NCBI RefSeq assembly: GCF_000013565.1
Contig: NC_007802.1
Coordinates: 2,046,001-2,110,000, forward strand
Length of the DNA stretch: 64,000 nucleotides
Direction: 5' to 3'
Source: Jannaschia sp. CCS1
GTDB taxonomy: Bacteria > Pseudomonadota > Alphaproteobacteria > Rhodobacterales > Rhodobacteraceae
A model generated the notes under the pieces. It was not told the origin of the DNA and did not search any database. It saw nothing but the letters and a program-made list of their open reading frames with translations. Shown here piece after piece: positions 5,067 to 61,402 of this stretch; the first letter of the stretch is position 1, and each line of letters begins with the position of its first letter. Both the position numbers and the translations under genes were made by a program.

Positions 5067-6656
5067 ATGAAACTGTTCAAACCGGCCCTGCTGTCGGCGA
5101 TGCTGGCGCTGCCGCTGGCAGCCCCCGCGGCCCTTGCGGAAACGCCGCCCGAGATCCTGGTGGTCGCGCAGAATATCGACGACATCGTCGCGATTGACCC
5201 GGCTCAGGCCTATGAGTTCACCTCTGGCGAGTTGGTGACGAACACCTATGACCGTCTTGTGCAATACGATGCCGAAGACACGACCGTGCTGGCCCCCGGT
5301 CTTGCCACGGAGTGGGAGATTGACGCCGAGGCCAAGACCATCGTCTTCACCATGCGCGAGGGTGTGACGTTCCATTCCGGCAATGCGTTCACGGCGGATG
5401 ACGTGGTTGGCTCCTTCGCCCGCGTGGTGCAGTTGAACCTGACGCCTGCGTTCATCCTGACGCAGCTTGGCTGGACGCCCGAAAACGTCGAGGAGATGGT
5501 GACAGCGGACGGCAACACTGTGACCGTGCGCTATGATGGCGACTTTTCCCCGGCCTTCGTGATGAACGTGCTGGCGTCGCGGCCTGCCTCCATCGTGGAT
5601 ATGGAAACGGTCATGGCCAACGCGGTTGACGGCGATATGGGCAATGCGTGGCTCAACGCCAACACGGCGGGCACGGGGCCGTTTTCGCTCAACACCTTCC
5701 GCGCGGCAGAGCTGATCCGCATGGATGCCAACCCTGACTATTTCAACGGTGCCCCCGCCATCGAGGGTGTAATCATCCGCCATGTCGCGGAATCGGCGAC
5801 ACAGCAATTGTTGCTGGAAGCGGGTGATGTTGATATTGCGCGCAACTTGACGCCGGACCAGATCGCGTCACTTGGCGGGGACGAGTTGCAGGTGGAGACG
5901 TTCCCACAAGCAGCCGTCCACTTCCTGTCGTTCAACCAGGCGGTCGAAAGCCTAACGCCCCCCGCCGTATGGGAAGCCGCGCGCTATCTGGTGGATTACG
6001 AGGGGATGACCAACTCGATCATCGCAGGCCAGATGGAAATCCATCAGGCGTTCTGGCCAGAAGGGTTCCCCGGCGCGTTGACCGACACGCCCTACACCTA
6101 TGATCCGGAGCGCGCCGCGCAGATCCTGGAAGATGCAGGGATTGAGCTGCCGATCACCGTCACGCTCGATGTGATCAACGCAGCACCCTTCACCGATATG
6201 GCGCAATCGTTGCAGGCGTCTTTCGCCGAAGCGGGCATCGAGTTCGAAATCCTGCCCGGCACCGGATCACAGGTGATCACCCGCTACCGCGACCGCAGCC
6301 ATGAGGCGATGTTGCTCTACTGGGGCCCGGACTTCATGGATCCCCATTCCAACGCCAAAGCCTTCGCCTACAATTCCGACAATCGGCAGGAAACCTACAC
6401 CGCCACGACGACATGGCGGAACTCCTGGGCGGTGCCGGAAGAGATGAACGCGATGACGACGGCGGCCCTGACGGAATCCGATCCGGCTGTGCGTGAAGAG
6501 ATGTATCTGGAGCTTCAGCGGCAGGTGCAGGCGAACTCGCCCATCGTGATCATGTTCCAGGCCTCCTATCAGGTGGGTATGGCCGAGAATGTGTCAGGCT
6601 ACGTGAATGGTGCGACGTCTGACTTCGTGTTCTACCGGCTTGTCGACAAAAGCTGA
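5067..6656 (+). CDS. ABC transporter substrate-binding protein, family 5 (peptide type)
   Basis: 529 aa periplasmic binding protein. A clear signal peptide ends at about AALAE (residue 25). The sequence TYDRLVQYDAEDTTVLAPGL and the TFHSGNAFTADDVVGSFARV segment are signatures of the DppA/OppA family. CGGAGG precedes the ATG. It is transcribed away from its permease and ATPase genes, which lie on the other side of the regulator, and is followed by an M24 peptidase gene. The partner enzyme suggests that proline-containing or otherwise peptidase-resistant short peptides could be the cargo, but the ligand is not readable from sequence. Confidence 0.92.
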   Translation: MKLFKPALLSAMLALPLAAPAALAETPPEILVVAQNIDDIVAIDPAQAYEFTSGELVTNTYDRLVQYDAEDTTVLAPGLATEWEIDAEAKTIVFTMREGVTFHSGNAFTADDVVGSFARVVQLNLTPAFILTQLGWTPENVEEMVTADGNTVTVRYDGDFSPAFVMNVLASRPASIVDMETVMANAVDGDMGNAWLNANTAGTGPFSLNTFRAAELIRMDANPDYFNGAPAIEGVIIRHVAESATQQLLLEAGDVDIARNLTPDQIASLGGDELQVETFPQAAVHFLSFNQAVESLTPPAVWEAARYLVDYEGMTNSIIAGQMEIHQAFWPEGFPGALTDTPYTYDPERAAQILEDAGIELPITVTLDVINAAPFTDMAQSLQASFAEAGIEFEILPGTGSQVITRYRDRSHEAMLLYWGPDFMDPHSNAKAFAYNSDNRQETYTATTTWRNSWAVPEEMNAMTTAALTESDPAVREEMYLELQRQVQANSPIVIMFQASYQVGMAENVSGYVNGATSDFVFYRLVDKS

Positions 6657-49008: not shown

Positions 49009-51243
49009 ATGTCCACAGCCTCAGCCCGCCTGTCCGTTCAAGGTCTGAACTGCGCGTCATGCGTGGGTCGGGTGGAGCGTGCATTGGCCGCTGTGCCGGG
49101 CGTGGGCGAGGTGGCAGTGAACCTGGCGACGGAGACGGCGCAGGTGGGCTTCGACGCTGATCAGGTCAGTGCGGCGGCGTTGGCCAGCGCCTCGTCTGAG
49201 GCTGGATATCCGGCCGAGGTGATCACCAGCGTCACCGCTCAGGCCTCGGACAAGACGGAGGAGATGCGGGGTGCCTTCACCCGCATGTGGATCGCCCTGG
49301 CGCTCACACTGCCAGTGTTCGTTCTGGAAATGGGGGCGCATCTCGTGCCCGCGATCCACCACGCGATTGGCGCGTCGATCGGGATGCAAGGGTCCTGGCT
49401 TGTGCAATTCGCCTTGACCGGGGCCGTGCTGGCGGGGCCGGGGCGCGTGTTTTTCCGCCTTGGGGTGCCAGCACTGGTCAAGCGCGCGCCGGACATGAAC
49501 AGCCTTGTGGCTTTGGGCACGGGCGCGGCGTTCGGTTACTCGGCCCTGGCCACGTTCGCCCCAGACCTGTTGCCCGCCGCCTCCCGGGCCGTCTATTTCG
49601 AGGCAGCCGCCGTGATCGTCACGCTGATCCTTCTGGGCCGCGCGTTGGAGGCCCGCGCCAAGGGGCGCACGGGAGCCGCGATCCGCGCGCTGATCGGTCT
49701 TCAGGCCCGTGAGGCGCGGGTGATGCGCGCGGGCGGGATAGAGGATGTGTCGATCGACGCGCTGGCCGTGGGCGATATCATCGTCCTGCGCCCCGGAGAG
49801 CGGGTGCCGATGGATGGAGCGGTCACGCAGGGTACATCCTTCGTGGACGAGGCGATGATCACCGGAGAGCCGGTTCCTGTCGAGAAAACAACGGGATGTG
49901 CCGTCACGGGCGGAACAGTGAACGGGGCAGGGTCTCTGCATCTGCGCGCCACCCGTGTGGGTGCGGACACGACCCTGGCGCAGATCATCCGTATGGTGCA
50001 GGAGGCCCAGGGCGCCAAACTGCCGATCCAGGCGCTGGTGGACCGGGTGACACTGTATTTCGTGCCTGCTGTCATGGTCGTCGCCGCGGTGACGGTGCTG
50101 GCCTGGCTGATCTTTGGTCCCGAGCCTGTGGTGACTTATGCGCTGGTCGCCGGTGTCTCTGTCCTGATCATCGCCTGCCCCTGTGCGATGGGGTTGGCGA
50201 CGCCGACCTCGATCATGGTGGGGACGGGACGGGCGGCGGAACTGGGCGTGTTGTTCCGAAAAGGTGATGCGCTACAAGGCCTCGCGGGCGTTCGGGTGGT
50301 GGCACTGGACAAGACGGGCACCGTGACGGAGGGGCGGCCAGAGGTCGTCGATGTGGCGCTGGCCGACGGCTTTACGCGTGACGACGTGATGACCTTGGCA
50401 GGTGCCGCCGAAGCGGCGTCGGAGCACCCGATTGCCAGCGCCATCGTGCGGGCGGCGAGAAGCGAGGCCGTCGCCAGCGATATCGAGGTCGCGCTGGGGC
50501 GTGGTCTGCGCGCGAATGTGGAAGGACGCGCCGTCGCCATTGGCTCTGCGCGGTTCCTGCGTGATGAGGGGATCGACTGCACCGGGTTCAATGAGGCAGT
50601 GCACACTGCGCGGGGCGAAACGGTCGTCTTCGTTGCCGTTGACGGTGCGCTTGCGGCGATGATCGCCGTGGCCGACACCGTGAAACCGTCAAGCGCTGCG
50701 GCGATCCAGGCGCTCAAGCAGAAGGGCCTGCGCGTGGCCATGATCACGGGCGATACCAGGGCGACCGCGCGGGCGATTGCGGACCGGCTTGGCATCGACG
50801 AGGTGGTGGCAGAGGTTCTGCCGGACGGGAAGGTGGACGCGCTGGCCACACTGCGCGCCCATGGCCCCGTCGCATTCGTGGGCGACGGCATCAACGACGC
50901 ACCAGCGCTGGCCCATGCCGACGTGGGAATTGCCATCGGGACCGGCACGGATGTGGCGATTGAAAGTGCCGATGTGGTGCTGATGTCCGGGGATCTGGCG
51001 GGCGTCGCCACGGCGATCGAGGTGTCAACAACCACAATGGCGAACATCCGGCAGAACCTTGGATGGGCCTTCGCCTATAATACGGGGCTTATCCCACTGG
51101 CGGCGGGGGCTCTCTATCCGGTCACCGGCCTGCTTCTGTCGCCCGCTTTTGCGGCGGGAGCGATGGCGTTGTCGAGTGTCTCCGTTCTGGGCAACGCGCT
51201 GCGGCTCAGGCGGATGGGCCGCCGGCAGGGACAGGTATCATGA
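49009..51243 (+). CDS. copA: Copper-exporting P1B-type ATPase
   Basis: 744 aa membrane ATPase that pumps Cu(I) out of the cytoplasm. One N-terminal heavy-metal domain with GLNCASCVGRVERAL, eight expected membrane helices, TGEPVPVEK, the transmembrane metal motif CPC in IIACPCAMGLATPTS, the phosphorylation motif DKTGTVTEG, SEHPIASAIV and GDGINDAPALAHADVGIAIG are all visible. CPC with a MerR-type CueR regulator marks it as Cu(I)-specific. Its start has GAAGGAGCGGTCCT upstream. The stop overlaps cueR. Confidence 0.95.
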   Translation: MSTASARLSVQGLNCASCVGRVERALAAVPGVGEVAVNLATETAQVGFDADQVSAAALASASSEAGYPAEVITSVTAQASDKTEEMRGAFTRMWIALALTLPVFVLEMGAHLVPAIHHAIGASIGMQGSWLVQFALTGAVLAGPGRVFFRLGVPALVKRAPDMNSLVALGTGAAFGYSALATFAPDLLPAASRAVYFEAAAVIVTLILLGRALEARAKGRTGAAIRALIGLQAREARVMRAGGIEDVSIDALAVGDIIVLRPGERVPMDGAVTQGTSFVDEAMITGEPVPVEKTTGCAVTGGTVNGAGSLHLRATRVGADTTLAQIIRMVQEAQGAKLPIQALVDRVTLYFVPAVMVVAAVTVLAWLIFGPEPVVTYALVAGVSVLIIACPCAMGLATPTSIMVGTGRAAELGVLFRKGDALQGLAGVRVVALDKTGTVTEGRPEVVDVALADGFTRDDVMTLAGAAEAASEHPIASAIVRAARSEAVASDIEVALGRGLRANVEGRAVAIGSARFLRDEGIDCTGFNEAVHTARGETVVFVAVDGALAAMIAVADTVKPSSAAAIQALKQKGLRVAMITGDTRATARAIADRLGIDEVVAEVLPDGKVDALATLRAHGPVAFVGDGINDAPALAHADVGIAIGTGTDVAIESADVVLMSGDLAGVATAIEVSTTTMANIRQNLGWAFAYNTGLIPLAAGALYPVTGLLLSPAFAAGAMALSSVSVLGNALRLRRMGRRQGQVS

Positions 51244-51626
51244 ACATTAAATACGTGGCGCAAGCCACTAATATTCCAGCAAAAACGATCCGATACTATG
51301 AAGAAATTGGCCTGATCCGGCCTGCGCGCGGGGCCAACGGATACCGCTCGTTCAGCGCGCAGGATCTGCACAAGCTGGCGTTTGTGGGGCGGGCGCGGGC
51401 GTTGGGCTTCTCCATCGCCGATTGCCGCGTGTTACTGGCGCTGTATGAGGATGCCGGGCGATCGTCTGCGGAGGTGAAAGCGGTGGCGCAGGCCCATCTG
51501 GCGGAGATCGACGCCAAGATTGCGGCCCTGACGGATATGCGCGCGACGTTGTCCCATCTGGTGGAGACCTGTGCGGGCGACGCCCGGCCCGATTGCCCGA
51601 TCCTCGCGTCACTTGCCAAAGATTAA
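51240..51626 (+). CDS. cueR: MerR-family copper regulator CueR/HmrR
   Basis: 128 aa. The N-terminal winged helix-turn-helix is VAQATNIPAKTIRYYEEIGL, followed by the long dimerisation helix and the C-terminal metal-binding loop C-AGDARPD-C (C-X7-C), typical of CueR Cu(I) sites. ATGA overlap with copA makes it co-expressed with, and the activator of, its own operon through the promoter at 48952-48982. Its stop codon overlaps that of the convergent AbrB gene. Confidence 0.94.
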   Translation: MNIKYVAQATNIPAKTIRYYEEIGLIRPARGANGYRSFSAQDLHKLAFVGRARALGFSIADCRVLLALYEDAGRSSAEVKAVAQAHLAEIDAKIAALTDMRATLSHLVETCAGDARPDCPILASLAKD

Positions 51627-52639
51627 CGCCCGAATAGCCGGGACGCGATGGGCGCGCCGATGATGACCGTGACGATCCGCAACAGATGGTGGGCGACAAC
51701 GAAGGCCACATCAGCGCCCGCGATCAGCGCCAGCACCGTCATCTCGGCCTGACCGCCGGGGGCGAACGCCAGCAGCGCCTCCAGATGCGGCGCGAGGCCG
51801 AGGGCCACGGCAAATTCCGCAAACGCGCCGCCGATGATCAGCAGGATCACGCAGAACCCCAGGGCGGCGACGACATCGCGGCGTACTTCCGCCCCCGTCA
51901 CGCCTGCGTATTTGGTCCCCACCGTCATGCCGATGAAGAACTGCGCCGCGAAAATCGCCTCCGCCGGGGGGCGGTGGTTGAGGATGCCCGTGACCGCCAG
52001 AAGCGCTGCGGCGATCAGCGGCCCCAGGATCGACGCCCCAAAAAGCCCGACGGCCTTGGCCACACGCCAGCCGACCAGACCCGCCGCGACCATCCACGCC
52101 AGTTGGTCCCAGGTGATGGAGGCGGCTGGCGCACCGGGCGGCGCGCTGAAATCCACGTCCCACGCCGTGACCATCACGACCGGCAAGGCCATCACGATGA
52201 CCATAACCCGGGTCGCGTGGATCAAGGACAGCGCGCGAACGTCGCCGCCAGCCTCTTCACCAAACAGCAGCATATCCTGTAACCCACCGGGCATGGCGGC
52301 GTAATAGCTGGTGATTGGGTCAAAGCCCCATAGCCGTTGAAAATAGGGTACACCAATGACGCCGATGAGCGTGATCATCACCGGGATCATCAACAGCGTC
52401 GGCCACATCGCCCCCATCGACAGGACGACGGTGAGCGTCAGAGTGGCCCCAACGGCGACGCCCAGAATGGCGCGCATCGCCTCGTTTATCGTGGGCTGGC
52501 CCCGCATCTCGACGCCCGCAAGTCCGGCGACCAGGCACGAAAGGATCGGGCCGAGAAGGAAGGGCAGGGGCAGATGGGCGATCAGGAAGACGCCGACGCC
52601 AATTGCTGCGATGGCGTAGGTGCGCAGCAAGATCAGCAC
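51623..52639 (-). CDS. AbrB family membrane protein
   Basis: 338 aa with about ten hydrophobic segments arranged as two repeats, each ending with a conserved G-rich stretch (RTYAIAAIGVGVFLIAHLPL, FLLGPILSCLVAGLAGVEM and AAGLVGWRVAKAVGLFGASI). This is the Pfam AbrB family (formerly ammonia monooxygenase-like), not the AbrB DNA-binding protein. MPGGLQDMLLFGEEAGGDVR and GGQAEMTVLALIAGADVAFV are the conserved motifs. Function unknown. I take the GTG at 52639, which overlaps the stop of the hydrolase gene by seven bases. Confidence 0.85.
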   Translation of the reverse strand: MLILLRTYAIAAIGVGVFLIAHLPLPFLLGPILSCLVAGLAGVEMRGQPTINEAMRAILGVAVGATLTLTVVLSMGAMWPTLLMIPVMITLIGVIGVPYFQRLWGFDPITSYYAAMPGGLQDMLLFGEEAGGDVRALSLIHATRVMVIVMALPVVMVTAWDVDFSAPPGAPAASITWDQLAWMVAAGLVGWRVAKAVGLFGASILGPLIAAALLAVTGILNHRPPAEAIFAAQFFIGMTVGTKYAGVTGAEVRRDVVAALGFCVILLIIGGAFAEFAVALGLAPHLEALLAFAPGGQAEMTVLALIAGADVAFVVAHHLLRIVTVIIGAPIASRLFGR

Positions 52640-53343
52640 GGACGCTCCAACCAGCCTTGCAGCGCCTGAGTTGTCCGCTCGGGCTGCTCCAGCGTTGGTA
52701 AATGGCCTGCGCCCTGGATGACCTGTAGCTCCGCGCCGGGAATGAGATCGCGCATCAGCTCGTGATATCCTGGCGGGCAAAGCGTATCGTCGGTCCCACA
52801 CAGGATCAGGGTCGGTACGTTTACGCGCCTCAAGGCCTCTTGTTGATCAGGACGCGTGGCAAGCGCTTGGGACTGCTGGACAAAGACCTCTGGCCCCAAC
52901 GTCTCCGCCATCGCCATGCAGAGGTCCAGGACCTCACCCGTGCGTGGCCCATCGGTCAGATAATTTGGCTTCATCTCATCGCGCATCACACGGCGCAGAT
53001 GGCCAGCGCGCACGGCCTCGATCTGGGGGGCACGGGCGCGGGCCCGCGCGGGCGGCTCGGCCTTCGGATTGGTGTCGAGCAGGGCAAGGTGGGTCACACG
53101 GTCCGGCGCGCGGGCGATGATCTCCATCGCGACCATCCCCCCCATCGAGAGGCCCGCAAGCGCGAATTGCTGAGGGGCTTGGCCCAAGACATCCTGGGCC
53201 AGAGCGCCGATGGTATCGCGCCCGGTCAAAGGGGCGACCATCACGGCCCTCCTGGCCGACAGCGCCGCGATCTGTGGCGCAAAAAGCCGCGCATCGCACA
53301 TCATACCGGGCAACAGGAGGAGAGGGGGAGGCCGCAAATTCAT
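52633..53343 (-). CDS. Alpha/beta hydrolase
   Basis: 236 aa hydrolase. The catalytic triad is readable: Ser in the nucleophile elbow GLSMGG, Asp in ILCGTDDTLCPP, His in IQGAGHLPTLEQP. An oxyanion-hole-like LLLPGMMCDARLF begins the protein. It has no signal peptide. Substrate unknown. It lies after coxG on the same strand with a 116-bp gap and overlaps the AbrB-family gene, so it may be a co-transcribed tail of the cox operon. Confidence 0.88.
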   Translation of the reverse strand: MNLRPPPLLLLPGMMCDARLFAPQIAALSARRAVMVAPLTGRDTIGALAQDVLGQAPQQFALAGLSMGGMVAMEIIARAPDRVTHLALLDTNPKAEPPARARARAPQIEAVRAGHLRRVMRDEMKPNYLTDGPRTGEVLDLCMAMAETLGPEVFVQQSQALATRPDQQEALRRVNVPTLILCGTDDTLCPPGYHELMRDLIPGAELQVIQGAGHLPTLEQPERTTQALQGWLERPC

Positions 53344-53459: not shown

Positions 53460-53915
53460 CTACACGGCGGCGTCCTCATTCACCACATCTGCAAAGGATT
53501 TGAAGAACTTGGCCGCCAGTTTCTCGGCGGTGCTTTGGATCAAACGGCTGCCCAGTTGCGCGAGCTTGCCGCCGATATCGGCCTTCGCCGTGTAGCGCAG
53601 GATCGTCGTCTCCGGCCCGTCGGCGGTCAGCGTCACATCCGCGCCGCCCTTGGCGTGTCCGGCAGCCCCACCGTTGCCCTGGCCGGTCAGCGAAAACGCA
53701 TCCGGCGCGCCTGCAGTATCCAGTTGCACGTCGCCGTTGAACCTGGCTTTCACCGGCCCGACCTTCAGCACGACCTTGGCCTCCAGCTCAGTGTCCGAGT
53801 GTTTGATCAACTCCTCGCAGCCGGGGATGCACTGTCTCAGGATTTCAGGATCGTTGAGCGCGGCGTAGACGCGGTCTTTGGGCGCGTTGATGATGATTTC
53901 ATCTGCCAGTTCCAT
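53460..53915 (-). CDS. coxG: CoxG-like SRPBCC domain protein
   Basis: 151 aa, one START/SRPBCC domain with a large ligand cavity: ELADEIIINAPKDRVYAALN, ILRQCIPGCEELIKHSDTEL, FSLTGQGNGGAAGHAKGGAD and the helix KLAQLGSRLIQSTAEKLAAK. CoxG proteins link CO dehydrogenase to the membrane and quinone pool. Typical CoxG has about 50 further residues with a C-terminal hydrophobic anchor; this one stops after the domain. GAAGGACATTCCC precedes the ATG, directly after the stop of the 33-codon gene. Confidence 0.88.
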   Translation of the reverse strand: MELADEIIINAPKDRVYAALNDPEILRQCIPGCEELIKHSDTELEAKVVLKVGPVKARFNGDVQLDTAGAPDAFSLTGQGNGGAAGHAKGGADVTLTADGPETTILRYTAKADIGGKLAQLGSRLIQSTAEKLAAKFFKSFADVVNEDAAV

Positions 53916-53928
53916 GGGAATGTCCTTC

Positions 53929-54030
53929 TTAGCAGCAAGGGAATTTGATCGTCGCCAATTGCTCGGCCTGCTCAGGCGTCAAAGCAAGTTTGCGGCGCAG
54001 GCGGGCGGCGGCGTGGCGCAGGGTTTTCAT
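53929..54030 (-). CDS. 33-residue small protein ending in Cys-Cys, cox operon
   Basis: A small gene. ATG at 54030 overlaps the stop of the nucleotidyltransferase gene (ATGA) and GGAAG lies seven bases upstream; its stop is followed 13 nt later by the coxG start. The product is basic at the N-terminus (MKTLRHAAARLRRKLAL), then TPEQAEQLATIK and the terminal FPCC. The tight coupling on both sides argues that it is translated. Two terminal cysteines in an operon that builds a Mo-Cu centre suggest metal or sulfur handling; this is inference. Confidence 0.6.
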   Translation of the reverse strand: MKTLRHAAARLRRKLALTPEQAEQLATIKFPCC

Positions 54031-54635
54031 GGGATGTCTTCCAGATTGCCAGCGGTGAGCGCGTCGTAGGCCGCTGGTGTGTCCACATCGGCGTAGAAAC
54101 CTGAGGACGGCAGGACGTGAAACTGAACGTGTTCGGGATGGGTGCGGGTGAACGTTTTGCAGCCCGGTGATCTGGGGTCTGCAAGGAGGGGCGCGCGCAG
54201 GGGTGAGGGCACCACGATGGGATTGCCCCGCTGGTCCCCAAGCGCCGGAATGGAGATGCGTGACGGGTCCGCGGCGGCGTGGGCTGCCAGCAAGGCGTGC
54301 AGGTCATCAGCGGTCAATAGGGGCTGGTCGCCAAGGCCGATGAACAGGGCCCGGGCCTCGGGCGCATTGCGCAATCCGCAGGCGACTGATGTTGGCTGAC
54401 CCTGCGCAAAATCGGGGTTGAAGACTGTTGTGGCACCGCTGCCGTCAAGGGCCGCCGCAACGTCTGATGCCTCATGGCCCGTCACCACCAGAACCGATCC
54501 GGATGTGGCCGCATTGTAGACATCGACCACATGGCGGATCATCGGCACGCCACCCACGGGCAACAGCAATTTGTTCCGCTCCCCCATGCGGCGCGACAGC
54601 CCTGCCGCGAGAAGGATCGCGGTGACATCACGCAT
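54027..54635 (-). CDS. MobA-like molybdopterin nucleotidyltransferase
   Basis: 202 aa Rossmann-type nucleotidyltransferase with the MobA/MocA signature ILLAAGLSRRMGERNKLLLP, then VVTGHEASDV, FNPDFAQGQPTSVACGL and LGDQPLL. It probably attaches CMP (as in MCD, molybdopterin cytosine dinucleotide) or acts in cofactor tailoring for CO dehydrogenase, which uses MCD. It overlaps coxF by eight bases. In Oligotropha the equivalent position is held by coxI and relatives of mobA. The real substrate is not shown by sequence. Confidence 0.85.
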   Translation of the reverse strand: MRDVTAILLAAGLSRRMGERNKLLLPVGGVPMIRHVVDVYNAATSGSVLVVTGHEASDVAAALDGSGATTVFNPDFAQGQPTSVACGLRNAPEARALFIGLGDQPLLTADDLHALLAAHAAADPSRISIPALGDQRGNPIVVPSPLRAPLLADPRSPGCKTFTRTHPEHVQFHVLPSSGFYADVDTPAAYDALTAGNLEDIP

Positions 54636-55398
54636 CGGTTTGCTTCACCGCGACACGCCGGTCTTGCACCAGCTGTGCCAGGATCGACAGGGCGATTTCT
54701 TCGGGGGTGACGGCCCCCAGATCGAGGCCCGCGGGCGCTTGAACGCGGTCGATAGCGGATTGATCGATGCCCACGGCGGCGAGCTTGTCGGCCAGAGAGG
54801 CGTATTTCCTGCGACTTCCGACAAAGGCGATGGAGTTGGTTTGCGCGGATAGCGCGGCCTTCAAAGCCTCCAGATCCCCTTGTCCCTGCGTGGCAATGAC
54901 AACACAACACGGCTTGTTTGGCGGTAAGGTTCCGGTCACAGACCAATGGAATTGTGGGGCCAGGGCATTGAGGGCCTCGGCCACGGGGGATGCGCCGATG
55001 ACCACCAGTTGCGGCGATGGCAGGCAGGGTTCGATGAAGATATCGACCGTGCCACGTGACGGGCAGCCATTGCGCGCAAACCGCATGCCGTCCACTTCGT
55101 CCCCGGCGCTCACGCCTTTCTCGGCCAATAACTCCTCCGGCGCGACGGAGACCAATTGTGGCGTGCCGTCGCGCAAGGCCTGAAGCGCCGCGCGTTTGAC
55201 CGCGCCGTGCGTGCAGCCGCCGCCCAACCAGCCTTGCAGGATCGTTCCATCGGCACTGAGCAGGGCCTTTGCCCCCGGCTTGGCCGCCGTGGACCCGGCC
55301 GTGCGCACGATGGTGGCAAAGGCAAAGGGTTCCGCGCGGTCTCGGAGGTCCTGGGCGGCTTCCGCCAGATCGGAAGAGAGGATTTCGGCCGGGGTCAT
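54628..55398 (-). CDS. coxF: XdhC/CoxF family Mo-enzyme maturation protein
   Basis: 256 aa. The XdhC pattern is clear: AFATIVRTAGSTAAKPGAKA, ILQGWLGGGCTHGAVKRAA near the N-terminus and a Rossmann domain at the C-terminus with IAFVGSRRKYASLADKL and LDLGAVTPEEIALSILAQLV. XdhC-type proteins bind the molybdenum cofactor and insert it into xanthine-oxidase-fold enzymes; CoxF has been implicated in maturing the CO dehydrogenase copper site. ATGA overlap with coxE. Confidence 0.9.
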   Translation of the reverse strand: MTPAEILSSDLAEAAQDLRDRAEPFAFATIVRTAGSTAAKPGAKALLSADGTILQGWLGGGCTHGAVKRAALQALRDGTPQLVSVAPEELLAEKGVSAGDEVDGMRFARNGCPSRGTVDIFIEPCLPSPQLVVIGASPVAEALNALAPQFHWSVTGTLPPNKPCCVVIATQGQGDLEALKAALSAQTNSIAFVGSRRKYASLADKLAAVGIDQSAIDRVQAPAGLDLGAVTPEEIALSILAQLVQDRRVAVKQTDA

Positions 55399-56576
55399 AC
55401 GCGCGCCAGCTCCTGTTCCAAGGCCGCAAGGTCAGCCAGCGTATTGGCCGCCTTGAAGGCATCCAGATAGGGGAGGGCAGCGGCCATGCCCTCGGCCACC
55501 GGTGCGTAATCTGACCAGCCTTTCAGAGGATTGAGCCAGATCACCTTGCAGCCCCGCTTGCGCAGCTTGGCCAGCGCCCCGGCAATCATATCGGGCGCTT
55601 GCGTGTCATAGCCGTCCGACAGGATCAGCACGACGCTGCGGCCATTGACGAAGCGTTTTGCATAGGTGTCGGCAAAGCGCATCAGCGACGGGCCGATCTT
55701 GGAGCCGCCGCCAAAGCCGTCGGCCATCAGGGACATCCGCCCAATCGCGCGCATCGCATCTTTATCGCGCAACGCCTCGGTGATCCGCACAAGGCGGGTG
55801 TGGAAAAGGTAGGCGTCGGCGGCGGTGTCGGCCCGCATCAGTCCGGCGAGGAAGGCGAGAAACACCTTGGCGTAGACGGACATGGAGCCTGAGACATCGC
55901 ACAGCGCCACGATGTTGCGGGTCCGGTCCGGGCGCTTCTTGCGTAGCAGGCGCAGGGGCTCGCCCCCGGTGGCAAGGCTGTGGCGGATGGTCTTGCGGAA
56001 GTGCAGCCTGTCGCCCTTACGGGCAGCGATGCGGCGACGGGAGCGGGCATCGCGGAGGGCCGCTCCCAGGCGGCGGGCGACATCCTCGGCCTCGGCGATT
56101 TCTTCTGGCCGCACCAGATCACGTAAGTCACGCCGGCTCAGGTTGCGTTGCTCGGTCGCGATCAGCTTGCCTGTACCATCACTGTCTGCCGCACCATCCT
56201 GGTCGTCGGGGGCCGTGGCCGAGCCGGAGGCGCTCGCGTCCTCACCTTTGGCATCACGAGATGAATGGACATCGTCGCTGATGGTGCTGGATGGCGTCGG
56301 GATCACCTTGGATTTAACCCGGCCCATGTCCATCCAATAGCTGTCAAAGAGGTCGTCGAACCGCTCCGCCTCCTCTTTACAGCCGGTGCACACGGCGCGT
56401 AGCGCGCGGCGGCTGTCGTCGGGCTGTATGGCGTTTACATGGGTGAGGGCGGCCATGGCCAGATCAGCCTCCGCCACGCCCAGACGCAGCCCGTTTTCAC
56501 GCAGATGCGCGATGAAACCCGCCACCCGCGCCGCAGGACCGGGATCGCGCCCGGCGAATTTCGTCACCCGGCTCAT
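55395..56576 (-). CDS. coxE: CoxE, von Willebrand A domain protein
   Basis: 393 aa. The C-terminal half is a vWA domain with the MIDAS motif DVSGSMSVYAKVFLAFLAGL and a later VVLILSDGYDTQAPDMIAG. The N-terminal half is helical with a Ser/Asp-rich insertion around residues 105-150. CoxE is the vWA partner of the CoxD AAA+ ATPase and helps insert copper in the active site of CO dehydrogenase in Oligotropha. ATGA overlaps on both sides couple it to coxD and coxF. Confidence 0.92.
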   Translation of the reverse strand: MSRVTKFAGRDPGPAARVAGFIAHLRENGLRLGVAEADLAMAALTHVNAIQPDDSRRALRAVCTGCKEEAERFDDLFDSYWMDMGRVKSKVIPTPSSTISDDVHSSRDAKGEDASASGSATAPDDQDGAADSDGTGKLIATEQRNLSRRDLRDLVRPEEIAEAEDVARRLGAALRDARSRRRIAARKGDRLHFRKTIRHSLATGGEPLRLLRKKRPDRTRNIVALCDVSGSMSVYAKVFLAFLAGLMRADTAADAYLFHTRLVRITEALRDKDAMRAIGRMSLMADGFGGGSKIGPSLMRFADTYAKRFVNGRSVVLILSDGYDTQAPDMIAGALAKLRKRGCKVIWLNPLKGWSDYAPVAEGMAAALPYLDAFKAANTLADLAALEQELARV

Positions 56577-57448
56577 GCGGCTTTGACAGCGATGCGGCCT
56601 GCCACTTCGCGGGTGATCTGGGCCTGGTCGCTTTGGGTTTTCAGCAGGGTCGTCAGGGTGGATTGCAAGACGGCGGGGTTGTCGGTGAGGTCCGCGATGC
56701 CAAGGCCCATAAGGGCGGCGGCGAAGTCCAGCATTTCGGCCACGCCGGGGGTCTTCTCCAATTCTTCCTCCCGCAGTCTTTGGACGAAGCCGATGATCTG
56801 TTCGGCCAAACGCGCTTCAACGTCAGGGCAGCGCGCCTTGAGGATGGCCAGCTCCGCCGTGCGGTCGGGGTATTCCACGTAGGTATAGAGGCACCGTCGG
56901 CGCAGGGCGTCCGACAGATCGCGTGTGCCGTTTGAAGTTAGGACGACCATTGGCCGTGTTACAGCCGTGATCGTGCCAAGTTCGGGGATGGAGACCTGAA
57001 AGTCCGAGAGGATTTCCAGCAGGTAGGCCTCGAATTCCTCATCGGCGCGGTCAATCTCGTCGATCAACAGAACCGGGGCCATCTCTTGCGTGATCGCCGC
57101 CAACAGGGGACGTTCCAGCAGGAAGTCGCGGGAAAAGATGCGGTCTTCAACGGCTTTTCCGGTCTCTCCGGCTTCGGATGCGGCGCGTATCGTCAGGAGT
57201 TGCCGCTGGTAGTTCCACTCATAGATCGCTTGCGCGGCGTCCAGCCCTTCATAGCACTGCAGCCGGATCAGACGGGTGTCGCGCACCGCAGACAACGTGC
57301 GCGCAATCTCGGTTTTGCCAACGCCTGCCGCGCCTTCCAGCAGCAGCGGACGGCCCAAAGACAGCGCCAGTTGCAAGGCAACGGCCAGGTCGTCCGAGGC
57401 CACATAGCCCTCAGCCGCCAGCGAAGATTTCAGGTCAGTCCATGTCAT
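56573..57448 (-). CDS. coxD: CoxD, MoxR-type AAA+ ATPase
   Basis: 291 aa. Walker A LLLEGAAGVGKTEIART, Walker B VLLIDEIDRADEEFE, sensor region VVLTSNGTRDLSDALRRRCL and arginine finger are present. MoxR AAA+ proteins work with vWA partners as chaperone-like machines; CoxD is known to be required for sulfuration/activation of the Mo site of CO dehydrogenase. It starts 45 bp after the coxL stop and overlaps coxE. Confidence 0.94.
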   Translation of the reverse strand: MTWTDLKSSLAAEGYVASDDLAVALQLALSLGRPLLLEGAAGVGKTEIARTLSAVRDTRLIRLQCYEGLDAAQAIYEWNYQRQLLTIRAASEAGETGKAVEDRIFSRDFLLERPLLAAITQEMAPVLLIDEIDRADEEFEAYLLEILSDFQVSIPELGTITAVTRPMVVLTSNGTRDLSDALRRRCLYTYVEYPDRTAELAILKARCPDVEARLAEQIIGFVQRLREEELEKTPGVAEMLDFAAALMGLGIADLTDNPAVLQSTLTTLLKTQSDQAQITREVAGRIAVKAA

Positions 57449-57493: not shown

Positions 57494-59920
57494 TTATCCG
57501 TGCAGGCCAAGATCATTCGCGGTCTTCCAGATCCGCCAATGGTCATGGGGCATGTTGGTGTGCCGATTGCCGAAGGGGCGGAATGCGTCCTGCACCGCGT
57601 TGGAGAAGCACGGCACCCCGCCCACATGGGGGCTTTCGCCCACCCCCTTCGCCCCGATGGGATGGTGCGGAGAGGGCGTGACGGTGAAGTCGGTCTCATA
57701 ATTCGGGACCTCCCAAGCCGTGGGCAGGAAGAAGTCCATCAACGTGCCGGTCTTGCAGTTGCCCATGTCGTCATAGGCGATCTCCTGCCCCAGGGCGACG
57801 GCCAGCGCTTCGGTCAAACCGCCGTGGACCTGTCCTTCGATGATCATCGGGTTGATCCGCGTGCCGCAATCGTCCAGCGCGTAGAAGCGGCGGATCTCTG
57901 GCACACCGGTGTCGACGTCGATATCCATGACGCAGACGTAAGCCCCGAAGGGATAGGTCATGTTGGGCGGATCATAGTAGCTGACCGCCTCTAGGCCCGG
58001 CTCCAACCCCGGAATGGCCTGATTATAGGCGGCAAAGGCCACTTCCTTCATGGTTTTGAACTGCTCCGGCGCGCCTTTTACGACGAAGCGATCCACGTCG
58101 AACTCCACGTCATTGTCGTGGACCTCCAGCAGATAGGCCGCGATCATCTGCGCTTTGGCGCGGATCTTGCGACCGGCCATGGCGGTGGCCGCCCCTGCAA
58201 CGGGGGTGGAGCGGGAGCCGTAGGTGCCAAGCCCGTAGGGGGCCGTGTCGGTGTCGCCTTCTTCAATCGTTATACTGTCGGCGGGCAGGCCGATTTCCGA
58301 GGCCAGGATTTGCGCAAACGTCGTCGCGTGACCCTGGCCCTGGCTGATCGTCCCGAGGCGCGCAATCGCAGACCCCGTGGGGTGGATGCGGATCTCACAG
58401 CTGTCGAACATGCCGAGGCCGAGGATATCGCAGTTCTTCACCGGGCCCGCACCGACGATCTCGGTGAAGAACGACAGGCCGATCCCCATCAGTTTGCGTG
58501 TCTTTCCAGCCTTGAAATCTTCGACACGCTGCGCTTGTTCCGCACGCAGCCCATCGTAGTCCACGGCCTTGAGCGCCTTGTCCCAGGCCGTGTGGTAGTC
58601 GCCGCTGTCGTATTCCCAGCCAAGGGCGGCGGTGTAGGGAAATTGCTCCTTCTTGATGAAGTTGATCCGCCGCAGCTCTGCCGCGTCCATGTTCAGCTCG
58701 ATGGCGAGGACTTCGATCATCCGTTCGATGAAGTAAACGGCCTCCGTCACCCGGAAGGAACAGCGATAGGATACGCCGCCCGGGGCCTTGTTAGTGTAGA
58801 CACCATCGACCTCCAGATATGCCGTGGGGATGTCGTAGGACCCGGTGCAGATATTCATGAAGCCCGCCGGGAATTTGGTCGGGTCGGCGCAGGCGTCAAA
58901 ACCGCCGTGATCCGCTGTCACGTGGCATTTCAGGCCGGTGATCTTGCCCTCCTTGGTGGCGCTGATCTGGCCCGTCATGTGGTAATCCCGCGCGAAGGCG
59001 GTGGTCATCAGATTGTCCATCCGGTCTTCGATCCACTTGACCGGTTTGCCCGTGACGATGGAGGCCACGACAGAGCAGACATAGCCCGGGTAAGCCCCCA
59101 CCTTGTTGCCGAACCCACCGCCGATGTCGGGGCTGATCACACGGATGTTGTGCTCCTCAATGCCGGAAATCAGGGAAACCACAGTACGGATCGCGTGGGG
59201 GGCCTGGAACGTGCCCCAAAGGGTCAGCTTGCCGTTGACCTTGTCCATGCTCGCCACACAGCCGCATGTCTCCAGCGGGCAGGGGTGGGTGCGGTGGTAG
59301 TACATGCTCTCCTCGGCCACGACCTCCGCGTCCGCGATGACCTGATCCGTGGGCTCCTTGTCGCCCGCTTCCCACGTGAAGATGTGGTTGGGATGCTTGC
59401 GCGGCCCGTGGGCGCCGGCGGGGATCGTGCCGTCTTCTGCCACCAGATCCTCGCGCAGGACGACATCTGATTGCAGCGCCTCAAACGGGTTTACCAGAAC
59501 GGGCAGCTCTTCGTAGTCGACCTCCACCAACTCAATCCCGTCGGCGGCGGCGTAGCGGTCCTCGGCCACCACAAAGGCGACTTCCTGGCCCTGAAAAAGG
59601 ACCTTGCCGTCGGCCAGCACCATCTGCTTGTCGCCCGCCAGCGTCGGCATCCAGTGCAGGCCAAGCGGCTCCAGATCCGCCGCCGTTAGAACGGCGAGGA
59701 CACCGGGGACGTCCATGGCGGCGGAAATGTCGATGCTCTTGACCCGAGCGTGGGCATAGGGGGAGCGGACGAAATCGCCAAACAGCATACCATCCATCTT
59801 GATGTCATCGACGTAATTGCCCTTGCCTTGGGTGAACCGTGCATCCTCCACCCGCTTGCGCGAGCAGCCCATGCCTTTGAGGTTATCAATGCGTTCCTCA
59901 CGCGAAACTTCGTCTTTCAT
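57494..59920 (-). CDS. coxL: Aerobic carbon monoxide dehydrogenase large subunit, form I
   Basis: 808 aa molybdo-copper subunit, matching Oligotropha CoxL (809 aa) along its whole length. The active-site loop reads GGVSYRCSFR with the copper-binding Cys387; the CSFR form is the diagnostic mark of form I (true CO oxidising) enzymes, whereas form II has AGAGR-like loops. The preceding residue is Ser384 instead of the usual Ala. The catalytic Glu is in KGVGESPHVGG near the C-terminus, and IGGGFGNKVG and GQGHATTFAQILASE line the cofactor site. It oxidises CO to CO2, passing electrons to CoxS and CoxM. Confidence 0.97.
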   Translation of the reverse strand: MKDEVSREERIDNLKGMGCSRKRVEDARFTQGKGNYVDDIKMDGMLFGDFVRSPYAHARVKSIDISAAMDVPGVLAVLTAADLEPLGLHWMPTLAGDKQMVLADGKVLFQGQEVAFVVAEDRYAAADGIELVEVDYEELPVLVNPFEALQSDVVLREDLVAEDGTIPAGAHGPRKHPNHIFTWEAGDKEPTDQVIADAEVVAEESMYYHRTHPCPLETCGCVASMDKVNGKLTLWGTFQAPHAIRTVVSLISGIEEHNIRVISPDIGGGFGNKVGAYPGYVCSVVASIVTGKPVKWIEDRMDNLMTTAFARDYHMTGQISATKEGKITGLKCHVTADHGGFDACADPTKFPAGFMNICTGSYDIPTAYLEVDGVYTNKAPGGVSYRCSFRVTEAVYFIERMIEVLAIELNMDAAELRRINFIKKEQFPYTAALGWEYDSGDYHTAWDKALKAVDYDGLRAEQAQRVEDFKAGKTRKLMGIGLSFFTEIVGAGPVKNCDILGLGMFDSCEIRIHPTGSAIARLGTISQGQGHATTFAQILASEIGLPADSITIEEGDTDTAPYGLGTYGSRSTPVAGAATAMAGRKIRAKAQMIAAYLLEVHDNDVEFDVDRFVVKGAPEQFKTMKEVAFAAYNQAIPGLEPGLEAVSYYDPPNMTYPFGAYVCVMDIDVDTGVPEIRRFYALDDCGTRINPMIIEGQVHGGLTEALAVALGQEIAYDDMGNCKTGTLMDFFLPTAWEVPNYETDFTVTPSPHHPIGAKGVGESPHVGGVPCFSNAVQDAFRPFGNRHTNMPHDHWRIWKTANDLGLHG

Positions 59921-60029: not shown

Positions 60030-60524
60030 TCATTCCGCTGCCTCCTTGGCCGCATTCATCTCAGCCGCAGCCGCCTGAATGCTCTTCACAATGTTCTGGT
60101 AGCCCGTGCAGCGGCAGATGTTGCCCGCCATGCCGAAGCGGATGTCTTCCTCTGTCGGGTTCGGGTTTTCTTCGAGCAGCTTTTGGGCGCGGGTGATCAT
60201 GCCCGGCGTGCAATAGCCGCACTGAAGCCCGTGATGTTCCTTGAACGCGGTCTGCAACGGGTGCAGGGCGTCCGGCCCGCCGATGCCTTCGATGGTCGTG
60301 ACCTCGGCTCCGTCAGCCTGGGCCACGAACATGGTGCAGGATTTGACCGATTTGCCGTTGATCGTGACGGTGCAGGCCCCGCAATGGGACGTCTCGCACC
60401 CGATATGCGGCCCGGTGATGTTGAGCCGCTCGCGCAGCGTATAGATCAGCAATTCGCGCGGCTCGGCCAGGAATTCCTCTTCCTTGCCGTTCACGTTGAG
60501 CGTGATGTGCATTTTCTTAGGCAT
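60030..60524 (-). CDS. coxS: Aerobic CO dehydrogenase small [2Fe-2S] subunit
   Basis: 164 aa. The plant-type [2Fe-2S] cluster is bound by CETSHCGAC followed by SC, and the second cluster by CGYCTPGM and CRCTGYQNI. It relays electrons from the Mo-Cu site to the flavin of CoxM. The ATG at 60524 follows GGGAGAAACACACT; a longer frame to 60563 overlaps coxM. A 109-bp gap, longer than elsewhere in the operon, separates it from coxL and holds no gene. Confidence 0.96.
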
Positions 60525-60547: not shown

Positions 60548-61402
60548 TTAGGCGCGTGACCAAGCGCGTTCGATCGCGCGGCGCAGGATGACGCCTGCCA
60601 CGTGGTTCTTGAAGGCGACGGGGCCGCGGTTGTCCTCGGTCGGGTCGATGTCGCCCAACATGGCGGCGACAGCAGCGTCCAAGGCGGTCGCGTCCACAAC
60701 CGTGCCCACAAGCGCCGCACCTGCGGCCTTGGAAAAGATCGGTGTGTCGCTGAGGTTCGTCATCGCGATAGACGCGCTGGTGCAGGTATCGCCGTCTTTG
60801 GTCATCTGCACGGCGGCGGCGGCGGTCGCATAATCGCCAATCTTGCGCTTCTGCTTCTCGTAGGAATAGCCGCCCCGGGGCATGGGGATCGTCACTGTGG
60901 TCAGCACTTCGTCATCCTCGCGCTCGGTCATATAGGCCGCCTCGTAGAACGCCCGCGCCGGGATCTCACGCTCGCCCTTGGGCCCCACGACGGTGAAGGA
61001 GGCATCCAGACATTGCATCAGGCCCGGCATGTCGTTGCCCGGATCACCGTTGGCAACATTGCCGCCGACGGTCCCCATGTACCGCACCTGAGGATCGGCG
61101 ATCTGCAAGGCCGCCTCGCGCAGGATCGGAGCCGCCTCTGTGAGGCCCGCATGGTCGATGATGTCGGCCTGCGTGACCATCGCGCCGATGCGGATGCTGT
61201 CACCGCCCACCTCAATCTCTGACATGCCTGACAGACCCTGAAGGTCGATCAGATGCGGAATATCGGCCATGCGCAGTTTCATCATGGGGATCAGGCTGTG
61301 GCCGCCCGCCATGACGCGGGCATCGTCGCCGTGTTCTTGCAGAATGGACAGGACGCCGGCCATGTCCTTGGGGCGATAATATTCAAACGCCGCTGGAATC
61401 AT
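60548..61402 (-). CDS. coxM: Aerobic CO dehydrogenase medium (FAD) subunit
   Basis: 284 aa. FAD-binding motifs [13 protein letters not shown] and [15 protein letters not shown] are characteristic of the CoxM/CutM flavoprotein family. It takes electrons from the iron-sulfur subunit and delivers them to the respiratory chain. The start has GGGAGGAGAAAGCCG upstream. It is the first structural gene, 116 bp downstream of the regulator gene. Confidence 0.96.

Follow-up and report, generated by a model that had tools for sequence, protein, structure and literature searches.

The cox operon of Jannaschia sp. CCS1 holds, directly upstream of coxG, a frame of 33 codons that ends in two cysteine codons. 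It raises two questions: whether the frame is a gene, and what so small a protein could do for an enzyme that carries a Mo-S-Cu center. The microprotein is a small, testable candidate for a factor in the supply of copper and sulfur to this center of aerobic CO dehydrogenase (CODH). The window analyzed here is the whole 64,000-nt stretch of contig NC_007802.1 (positions 2,046,001 to 2,110,000), and coordinates are window positions unless another locus is named. Genomes and loci are cited by our own handles (G and L numbers) where they must be told apart.

The frame and its operon

The cox genes lie on the minus strand in the order coxM-coxS-coxL-coxD-coxE-xdhC-(MobA-like)-microprotein-coxG. coxM (60548..61402) and coxS (60030..60524) were each recognized by a frame and a match adjoining coxL, as in all 49 form I loci including that of the window. 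The large subunit gene coxL (57494..59920) is of form I, scoring 1405 bits with TIGR02416 against a cut-off of 991, and it is followed by coxD (56573..57448), an AAA ATPase gene by its Pfam match, coxE (55395..56576; VWA_CoxE) and a maturation gene of the xdhC/coxF type (54628..55398; Pfam XdhC_CoxI and XdhC_C). The MobA-like nucleotidyltransferase gene (54027..54635) matches NTP_transf_3, while its best NCBIfam model, TIGR03310, stays below the cut-off. At the end of the series, coxG (53460..53915) encodes 151 aa with a Pfam COXG match and lacks the hydrophobic C-terminal extension that Afipia CoxG has. The genome has a second CoxG homolog at a distance from the operon (contig C2, 3430865-3431272, plus strand).

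The microprotein gene (53929..54030, minus strand) encodes MKTLRHAAARLRRKLALTPEQAEQLATIKFPCC. Its ATG (54030-54028) overlaps the MobA-like stop codon by 4 nt (ATGA), and a Shine-Dalgarno-like GGAAG (54038..54042) lies 7 nt 5' of the ATG. The terminal cysteine codons TGC TGC (53932..53937) are directly followed by the stop TAA (53929-53931), and the 13 nt between this stop and the coxG start at 53915 contain GAAGGA (53923..53928), a Shine-Dalgarno-like site for coxG. The sequence-only reading had described this overlap, the GGAAG site and a stop just 5' of the coxG ribosome binding site, and all three are confirmed from the letters themselves. The same holds for the product, which had been called basic and then helical with an FPCC end: it is 33 aa long, net basic and ends in FPCC, and two helices are predicted by AlphaFold2.

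The frame had also been described as unannotated. Three plasmid records from Rhodobacterales carry a Cys-Cys-ended frame 5' of coxG, and in their gene tables, which are incomplete PLSDB ones, the description stands for two of the three, while the third lists a hypothetical protein of 40 aa (WP_301547026.1). A part of the cox operon can thus be missed by gene tables.

Downstream of coxG, the window encodes an alpha/beta hydrolase and an AbrB-type protein (52633-53343 and 51623-52801, both minus strand), and no alpha/beta hydrolase was found downstream of coxG in the 48 other fetched loci. The opposite strand carries, close to where the cox region ends on its 3' side, a copA-like gene for a copper-translocating P-type ATPase and a cueR regulator gene (49009-51626, plus strand). 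As copA and cueR adjoin the cox operon in one of 49 loci, that of the window, and in 0 of the 48 others, this copper neighborhood is not conserved and was dropped as evidence.

Distribution among form I operons

When 101 genomes, comprising relatives and the window's own, were searched with the single window peptide, four further genomes had strong matches (E 3.9e-9 or better) and five had weaker matches with an FPCC or FSCC end (G025, G047, G043, G019 and G059); a coxG-like start follows the peptide in every case except G047. A profile made from nine peptides (A1) then matched in 45 of the 199 genomes searched from the window's family, Rhodobacteraceae. In 12 of these the match stops at position 26-28, short of the cysteine end, and these were left uncounted. 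The remaining 33 genomes have a match that reaches the Cys-Cys end (E 0.0025 or better), and eight of them, the window's own included, supplied rows of the profile and match by construction. The 49 genomes with a form I coxL above the TIGR02416 cut-off include all 33, and no such match was found in the other 150, two of which hold coxL fragments below the cut-off (G150, 948 bits; G158, 935 bits). Every end-reaching match lies less than 4 kb from the form I coxL and on the same strand (33/33). Within the window's genus, form I coxL occurs in two of 13 genomes, and exactly those two carry the peptide. In the genomes searched, the microprotein is restricted to form I coxL operons.

Reading the 49 form I operons one by one gave 37 with a Cys-Cys-ended peptide. 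A coxG homolog is found downstream in 41, and in 35 of these a Cys-Cys-ended frame stops 11-24 nt 5' of coxG; 31 of the frames match the profile, and four are divergent, with FPKCC, YPRCC or HPRCC ends. The frame in front of coxG in G055 ends in FPRSC, and no Cys-Cys-ended frame was found upstream of coxG in G186, G017, G048, G253 and G139. Two of the eight operons without an adjoining coxG match retain the peptide, one of them intact (G152, L088) and the other as a frame after xdhC that lacks a usual start codon (G047, L081). No Cys-Cys-ended frame was seen within 1.2 kb after xdhC in G255, G133, G170, G119 and G157. With G029 left out as non-assessable at a contig end, 48 operons can be judged, and the Cys-Cys end is absent from 11 of them. 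Each of the seven genomes judged here that have no adjoining coxG has at least one CoxG homolog elsewhere. Short (F)PCC-ended frames 5' of coxG, which the sequence-only reading had proposed to look for in other Rhodobacterales, are therefore found, and they belong to most form I operons of the family rather than to every one.

The stretch 5' of coxG in G139 and G253 may be a decayed copy, as judged by eye and without statistical support. On 18 loci, a DNA profile meant to detect decayed copies found those of the window, G047 and G152, and the remainder gave weak values (E 0.37-0.83). Since it missed the four divergent copies, this profile is not sensitive. Two cysteine codons followed by a stop occur about 0.006 times per 60-nt stretch on the operon strand of the 49 loci, with the real copies included, and in none of the 27 stretches of up to 60 nt upstream of other CoxG homologs, for which the form of coxL is not established in each case. 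Against this low background, the 35 of 41 form I loci with such a frame just 5' of coxG are more than chance would give.

Public genome contigs were scanned with a pattern that requires KFPCC directly before a stop and, 10-18 nt further on, ATGGA; it gave at least 120 loci. The pattern fixes these positions, so their conservation cannot be measured in this set. A CoxG homolog lies directly downstream in 95 of the 120 loci listed, and these 95 come from Rhodobacterales or alphaproteobacterial MAGs. Most of the 25 loci without one look like chance, and one (L243) is a genuine copy truncated where the locus ends. The pattern set overlaps with the 49 operons, as at least 11 of the 95 loci are on the same contigs. 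Among the 95 loci listed, the nearest recognized upstream gene is xdhC in 55, mobA in 37 and none in three with short upstream DNA, which means that the MobA-like gene is optional. The coupling to MobA was consequently rejected as a key feature. In the location first proposed, between a MobA-like gene and coxG, the MobA-like neighbor is incidental.

Outside the family sample, 17 further form I loci gave a mixed outcome. One genome of the window's family (G626) has an FPCC-ended peptide. Two from other families of the class have a frame ending in TTPVCC after xdhC with no coxG match (G314, L119) and a frame ending in RRFCCM 5' of coxG (G683, L130). A further member of the window's family (G706, L124; about 6390-6440 in coxL orientation) has an FPCC stretch whose frame continues into coxG without a stop, possibly a natural fusion or a lost stop codon. 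The other 13 loci, including one of the window's family (G434), have no convincing peptide. Two form I loci were left out of the class and phylum samples, one with a partial coxL (G281) and one of two G276 copies at a contig end.

A CoxL tree, built by a quick method from 69 of 70 loci (G029 was left out) and with 28 of 66 inner branches starred, places the window's family and some neighboring families in one clade of 56 rows. Of these rows, 34 have the peptide, eight are divergent or odd and 14 are without it; the divergent class on the tree includes G055 with its SC end, G683 (FCCM), G314 (TTPVCC) and the in-frame case G706. The peptide label changes at least seven times on the tree, and five changes are forced by starred branches. 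The simplest reading is a single early origin followed by several losses, of which the tree is no proof.

Selection, predicted structure and translation

Only in this reading frame are substitutions predominantly synonymous. Over codons -22 to -6, counted from the end, the in-frame pN/pS was 0.40 and 0.30 in the pattern set (803 and 194 pairs) and 0.42 and 0.33 in the family set (73 and 15 pairs), the sequence pairs not being independent, against 1.15-1.85 in the two shifted frames. Among the 94 of 95 pattern loci long enough to be counted, Q is found at -13 in 90 (two codons), L at -9 in 82 (five codons), and A at -12 in 82 and at -8 in 83 (each with at least two codons). In the family set, where Cys-Cys alone was required, F precedes the cysteines in 29 of 35 frames, P in 30 and K in 25, and the terminal Cys-Cys is among the most conserved features of the microprotein.

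These values bear on the possibility that the frame is spurious or the residue of an older gene, conserved merely by its location in the operon. The frame is very short and its Cys-Cys end is absent from some assessable loci (11/48), which would suit such an origin. However, the restriction to form I operons, the residues that stay constant while their codons change, and the purifying selection found in frame (0.30-0.42 against 1.15-1.85) contradict it and make it exceedingly improbable. The short frame is a real, conserved protein-coding gene of form I CODH operons in Rhodobacterales.

In 84 of the 95 pattern loci an ATG start lies 26-60 codons from the end, and the peptides encoded there have a median length of 33 and a median net charge of +5 (range 0 to 8). 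AlphaFold2 was run on an alignment (A2) of 67 members, the window peptide and 66 of 82 other distinct peptides, and predicted two helices (2-14 and 19-29), with the terminal FPCC as coil. The mean pLDDT was 88 for the best model and 69-88 over five models. For the first 16 residues, 11% of shuffles reach the same amphipathicity, which is thus not beyond chance, so membrane binding is at most suggested. Hydropathy, taken as the highest 19-residue mean of each of the 84 peptides, has a median of 0.26 and a maximum of 1.03, which is below that of a membrane segment.

A frame in this position could also act in cis, in that its translation rather than its product would tune the translation of coxG, through, for example, slow decoding of the cysteine codons or a stalling terminus. 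The stop is tightly placed 11-24 nt 5' of coxG and conservation is concentrated at the end of the frame, both of which fit a leader. Excerpts of work on Bordetella CruR and Rhodobacter CutF describe copper-sensing nascent peptides (PMC9426467; PMC9973294). However, folding of the region that begins 60 nt before the frame ends and reaches 25 nt into coxG gave no structure that hides the coxG start (mean z +0.49; 0/94 loci below -2), and the alifold consensus over the same region in the 94 loci was empty; an RNA element was rejected on these grounds. The second helix is conserved as well, G152 keeps the peptide without coxG after it, and the window peptide has no match to DUF2946 at E up to 1. 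According to the excerpts on CruR, its Cys motif lies well 5' of the stalling motif, whereas the microprotein cysteines are the last two residues and would presumably still be inside the ribosome. Such regulation is a highly doubtful explanation of the frame.

CoxG tails, copper and sulfur

A Cys-Cys pair appears in another form in other cox operons. The CoxG proteins of Afipia, two Bradyrhizobium plasmids, Rhizobium SL42, G442 and G724 have a hydrophobic C-terminal segment followed by Cys-Cys (loci L107, 7977-8594; L113, 6001-6630; L282, 6001-6645; L263; L264). A further 19-23 residues, including another cysteine (ICS or ICT), come after the pair. The coxL of these operons is above the form I cut-off or named as form I, except in G724, which is form I-like with its coxL unseen. 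In O. carboxidovorans there is no Cys-Cys frame between coxF and coxG, and the CoxG tail is basic and hydrophobic and then carries Cys-Cys. Likewise, no peptide was found between xdhC and coxG in the operons of Afipia, Bradyrhizobium, Rhizobium SL42 and Shinella. In the window's family, the form I CoxG is tailless with 147-153 aa in 41 of 41 loci, and of 10 CoxG homologs elsewhere in eight family genomes, seven have 169-188 aa and a basic or KKGWFK-like end. Both tail and microprotein combine a basic segment with Cys-Cys, but the tail is fused to CoxG and contains a hydrophobic segment that is absent from the separate microprotein. As queries, the Hyphomicrobiales CoxG tails had no plasmid match and matched their own genome alone among 192, and the literature passages on CoxG contained no description of a Cys-Cys tail.

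The microprotein might be a detached piece of CoxG, an adaptor that docks a tailless CoxG to the membrane or CODH and aids delivery of quinone to CODH. CoxG is a menaquinone-binding protein according to an excerpt of one report (PMC13240472), and the contrast between tailless form I CoxG in 41 family loci and tailed homologs elsewhere, the Cys-Cys tails just described, the in-frame FPCC of G706 and the position of the peptide directly 5' of coxG in the 95 pattern loci listed would all agree with an adaptor. On the other hand, the peptide is kept without an adjoining coxG in G152 and G047, both of which hold another CoxG homolog, and tailless form I CoxG occurs without the peptide in Shinella, G558, G664 and five family loci. 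The peptide is also less hydrophobic than a membrane segment, as its hydropathy values indicate. Further, 17 other CoxG homologs in G442's order, which need not be of form I, carry a hydrophobic tail that lacks Cys-Cys; the extended form I CoxG of G445 and G500 is likewise without the pair. We regard an adaptor role as unlikely. Because G152 and G047 keep the peptide without an adjoining coxG, a link to maturation is favored over a role purely as partner of CoxG.

The sequence-only reading had named the microprotein a candidate carrier of copper or sulfur, which is supported in part: the conserved protein is tied to form I operons, but the computed results do not tell copper, sulfur, adaptor and regulatory roles apart. 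Our preferred explanation, which we favor tentatively and at somewhat less than an even chance, is that the microprotein is an accessory of form I CODH whose terminal cysteine pair serves as a transient Cu(I) site. According to excerpts of the study on O. carboxidovorans, CODH from a coxG insertion mutant had its full cyanolyzable sulfur, low copper, high zinc and an activity of 51% of the wild type (PMC4240915). In COX17, one Cu(I) is bound between the adjacent Cys22 and Cys23, as given in part of a report on that protein (PMC7582641). The link to form I, the Cys-Cys tails of CoxG, the copper-poor CODH of the coxG mutant and the adjacent cysteines of COX17 together favor Cu(I) hand-over. The authors of the mutant study, in the same excerpts, concluded that CoxG has no part in cluster assembly; they assigned CoxG to membrane recruitment and saw CoxF as the supplier of copper, and they named the finding of missing CODH maturation factors as a future challenge (PMC4240915).

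In copper hand-over, synthesis of the microprotein would be translationally coupled to the maturation genes (xdhC and sometimes the MobA-like gene) on one side and to coxG on the other. Its basic N-terminal helix and short second helix (LTPEQAExLAxI) would dock on the surface of a maturation protein, of CODH or of the membrane, and the docked microprotein would present its flexible K-F-P-C-C terminus. The vicinal cysteine pair could then hold Cu(I) transiently and hand it to the sulfurated Mo center. Translation in the cell, a cytoplasmic location, docking, and the binding and transfer of copper are all presumed here. The strongest point against an essential role is the missing Cys-Cys end in 11 of 48 operons; given these operons and those of Afipia, Bradyrhizobium, Rhizobium SL42 and Shinella, the Cys-Cys end of the peptide is not generally required for copper loading.

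Two adjacent terminal cysteines would equally suit persulfide or redox chemistry. As a sulfur carrier or thiol redox partner, the microprotein would take persulfide from a cysteine desulfurase and pass it towards Mo via XdhC/CoxD, or it would reduce or protect thiols during maturation. A flexible terminal cysteine arm would suit sulfur relay in the manner of TusE/DsrC-type arms, and in 55 of the 95 pattern loci listed xdhC is the first gene recognized upstream. Other molybdenum hydroxylases served by XdhC likewise need sulfuration, yet in the genomes searched the peptide is found with form I alone. This confinement points to a form I speciality, copper, rather than to sulfur. For CODH itself, the excerpts of the mutant study state that the source of sulfur is unknown (PMC4240915), which favors a carrier, and we still consider this role improbable on the whole. 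We would place Cu(I) hand-over above sulfur or redox chemistry, the CoxG adaptor and the leader, and the order of the first three is one that we infer.

A broader form of the preferred explanation, which is possible but more doubtful, takes the microproteins as an undescribed family that serves the Mo-Cu CODH of Rhodobacterales as its own donor of Cu(I), or as a factor that hands over Cu/S, and has the same Cys-Cys module as the hydrophobic form I CoxG tail of Hyphomicrobiales. If true, the shared module would explain the copper-poor CODH of the O. carboxidovorans coxG mutant.

The microprotein matches no known family that would settle its function. None of the 67 members of A2 match an NCBIfam model at E 0.01, and no copper family of Pfam or NCBIfam is among their matches at E up to 0.01. 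Matches to Pfam HA (3/67, best E 0.00012) and L27_1 (1/67) were judged to be chance, as was DUF5955 for the window peptide (E 0.018, below its cut-off). A PDB profile search gave 33 sequences at E up to 1, with no COX17 chain among them. Most of them, the best included (E 1.7e-7), were TAL-effector repeat proteins, a likeness taken to be chance that covers positions 14-26 or 6-26 with the LTPEQ-type helix and is without the cysteine end. Literature on CoxG, cox maturation, small ORFs and copper uORFs, in which subscription papers are thinly covered, yielded no description of the microprotein, and the terms 'hypothetical protein' and 'mobA' are absent from the excerpts of a 2026 marine CODH survey that treats the context of coxG.

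CoxD, CoxE and CoxF share the operon and likely the same process, but they are large proteins of known families, none of which the microprotein matches. YbdD/YjiX proteins (PF04328) are short and have two cysteines at the end. They differ from the microprotein in their gene surroundings, and PF04328 was matched neither by the window peptide (E up to 1) nor by the 67 members (E up to 0.01). YbdD is needed for the pyruvate transporter CstA, according to an excerpt (PMC5847655). The CutF and CruR frames (DUF2946) resemble the microprotein gene as small cysteine-containing frames 5' of an operon gene in Proteobacteria. However, the excerpts give CutF a CxxxC and CruR a CxxC motif with a proline-rich or RAPP stalling-type end, whereas the microprotein cysteines are adjacent and terminal. 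CutF is further described there with a signal sequence and a stem-loop that hides the Shine-Dalgarno site, and the microprotein locus is without such a structure. COX17 has no CHCH fold or further cysteine pairs in common with the microprotein, whose cysteines stand at the extreme C-terminus of 33 aa, but both are small and helical, and the microprotein resembles COX17, as described in part of the source, in having two adjacent cysteines and in belonging with a copper enzyme (PMC7582641).
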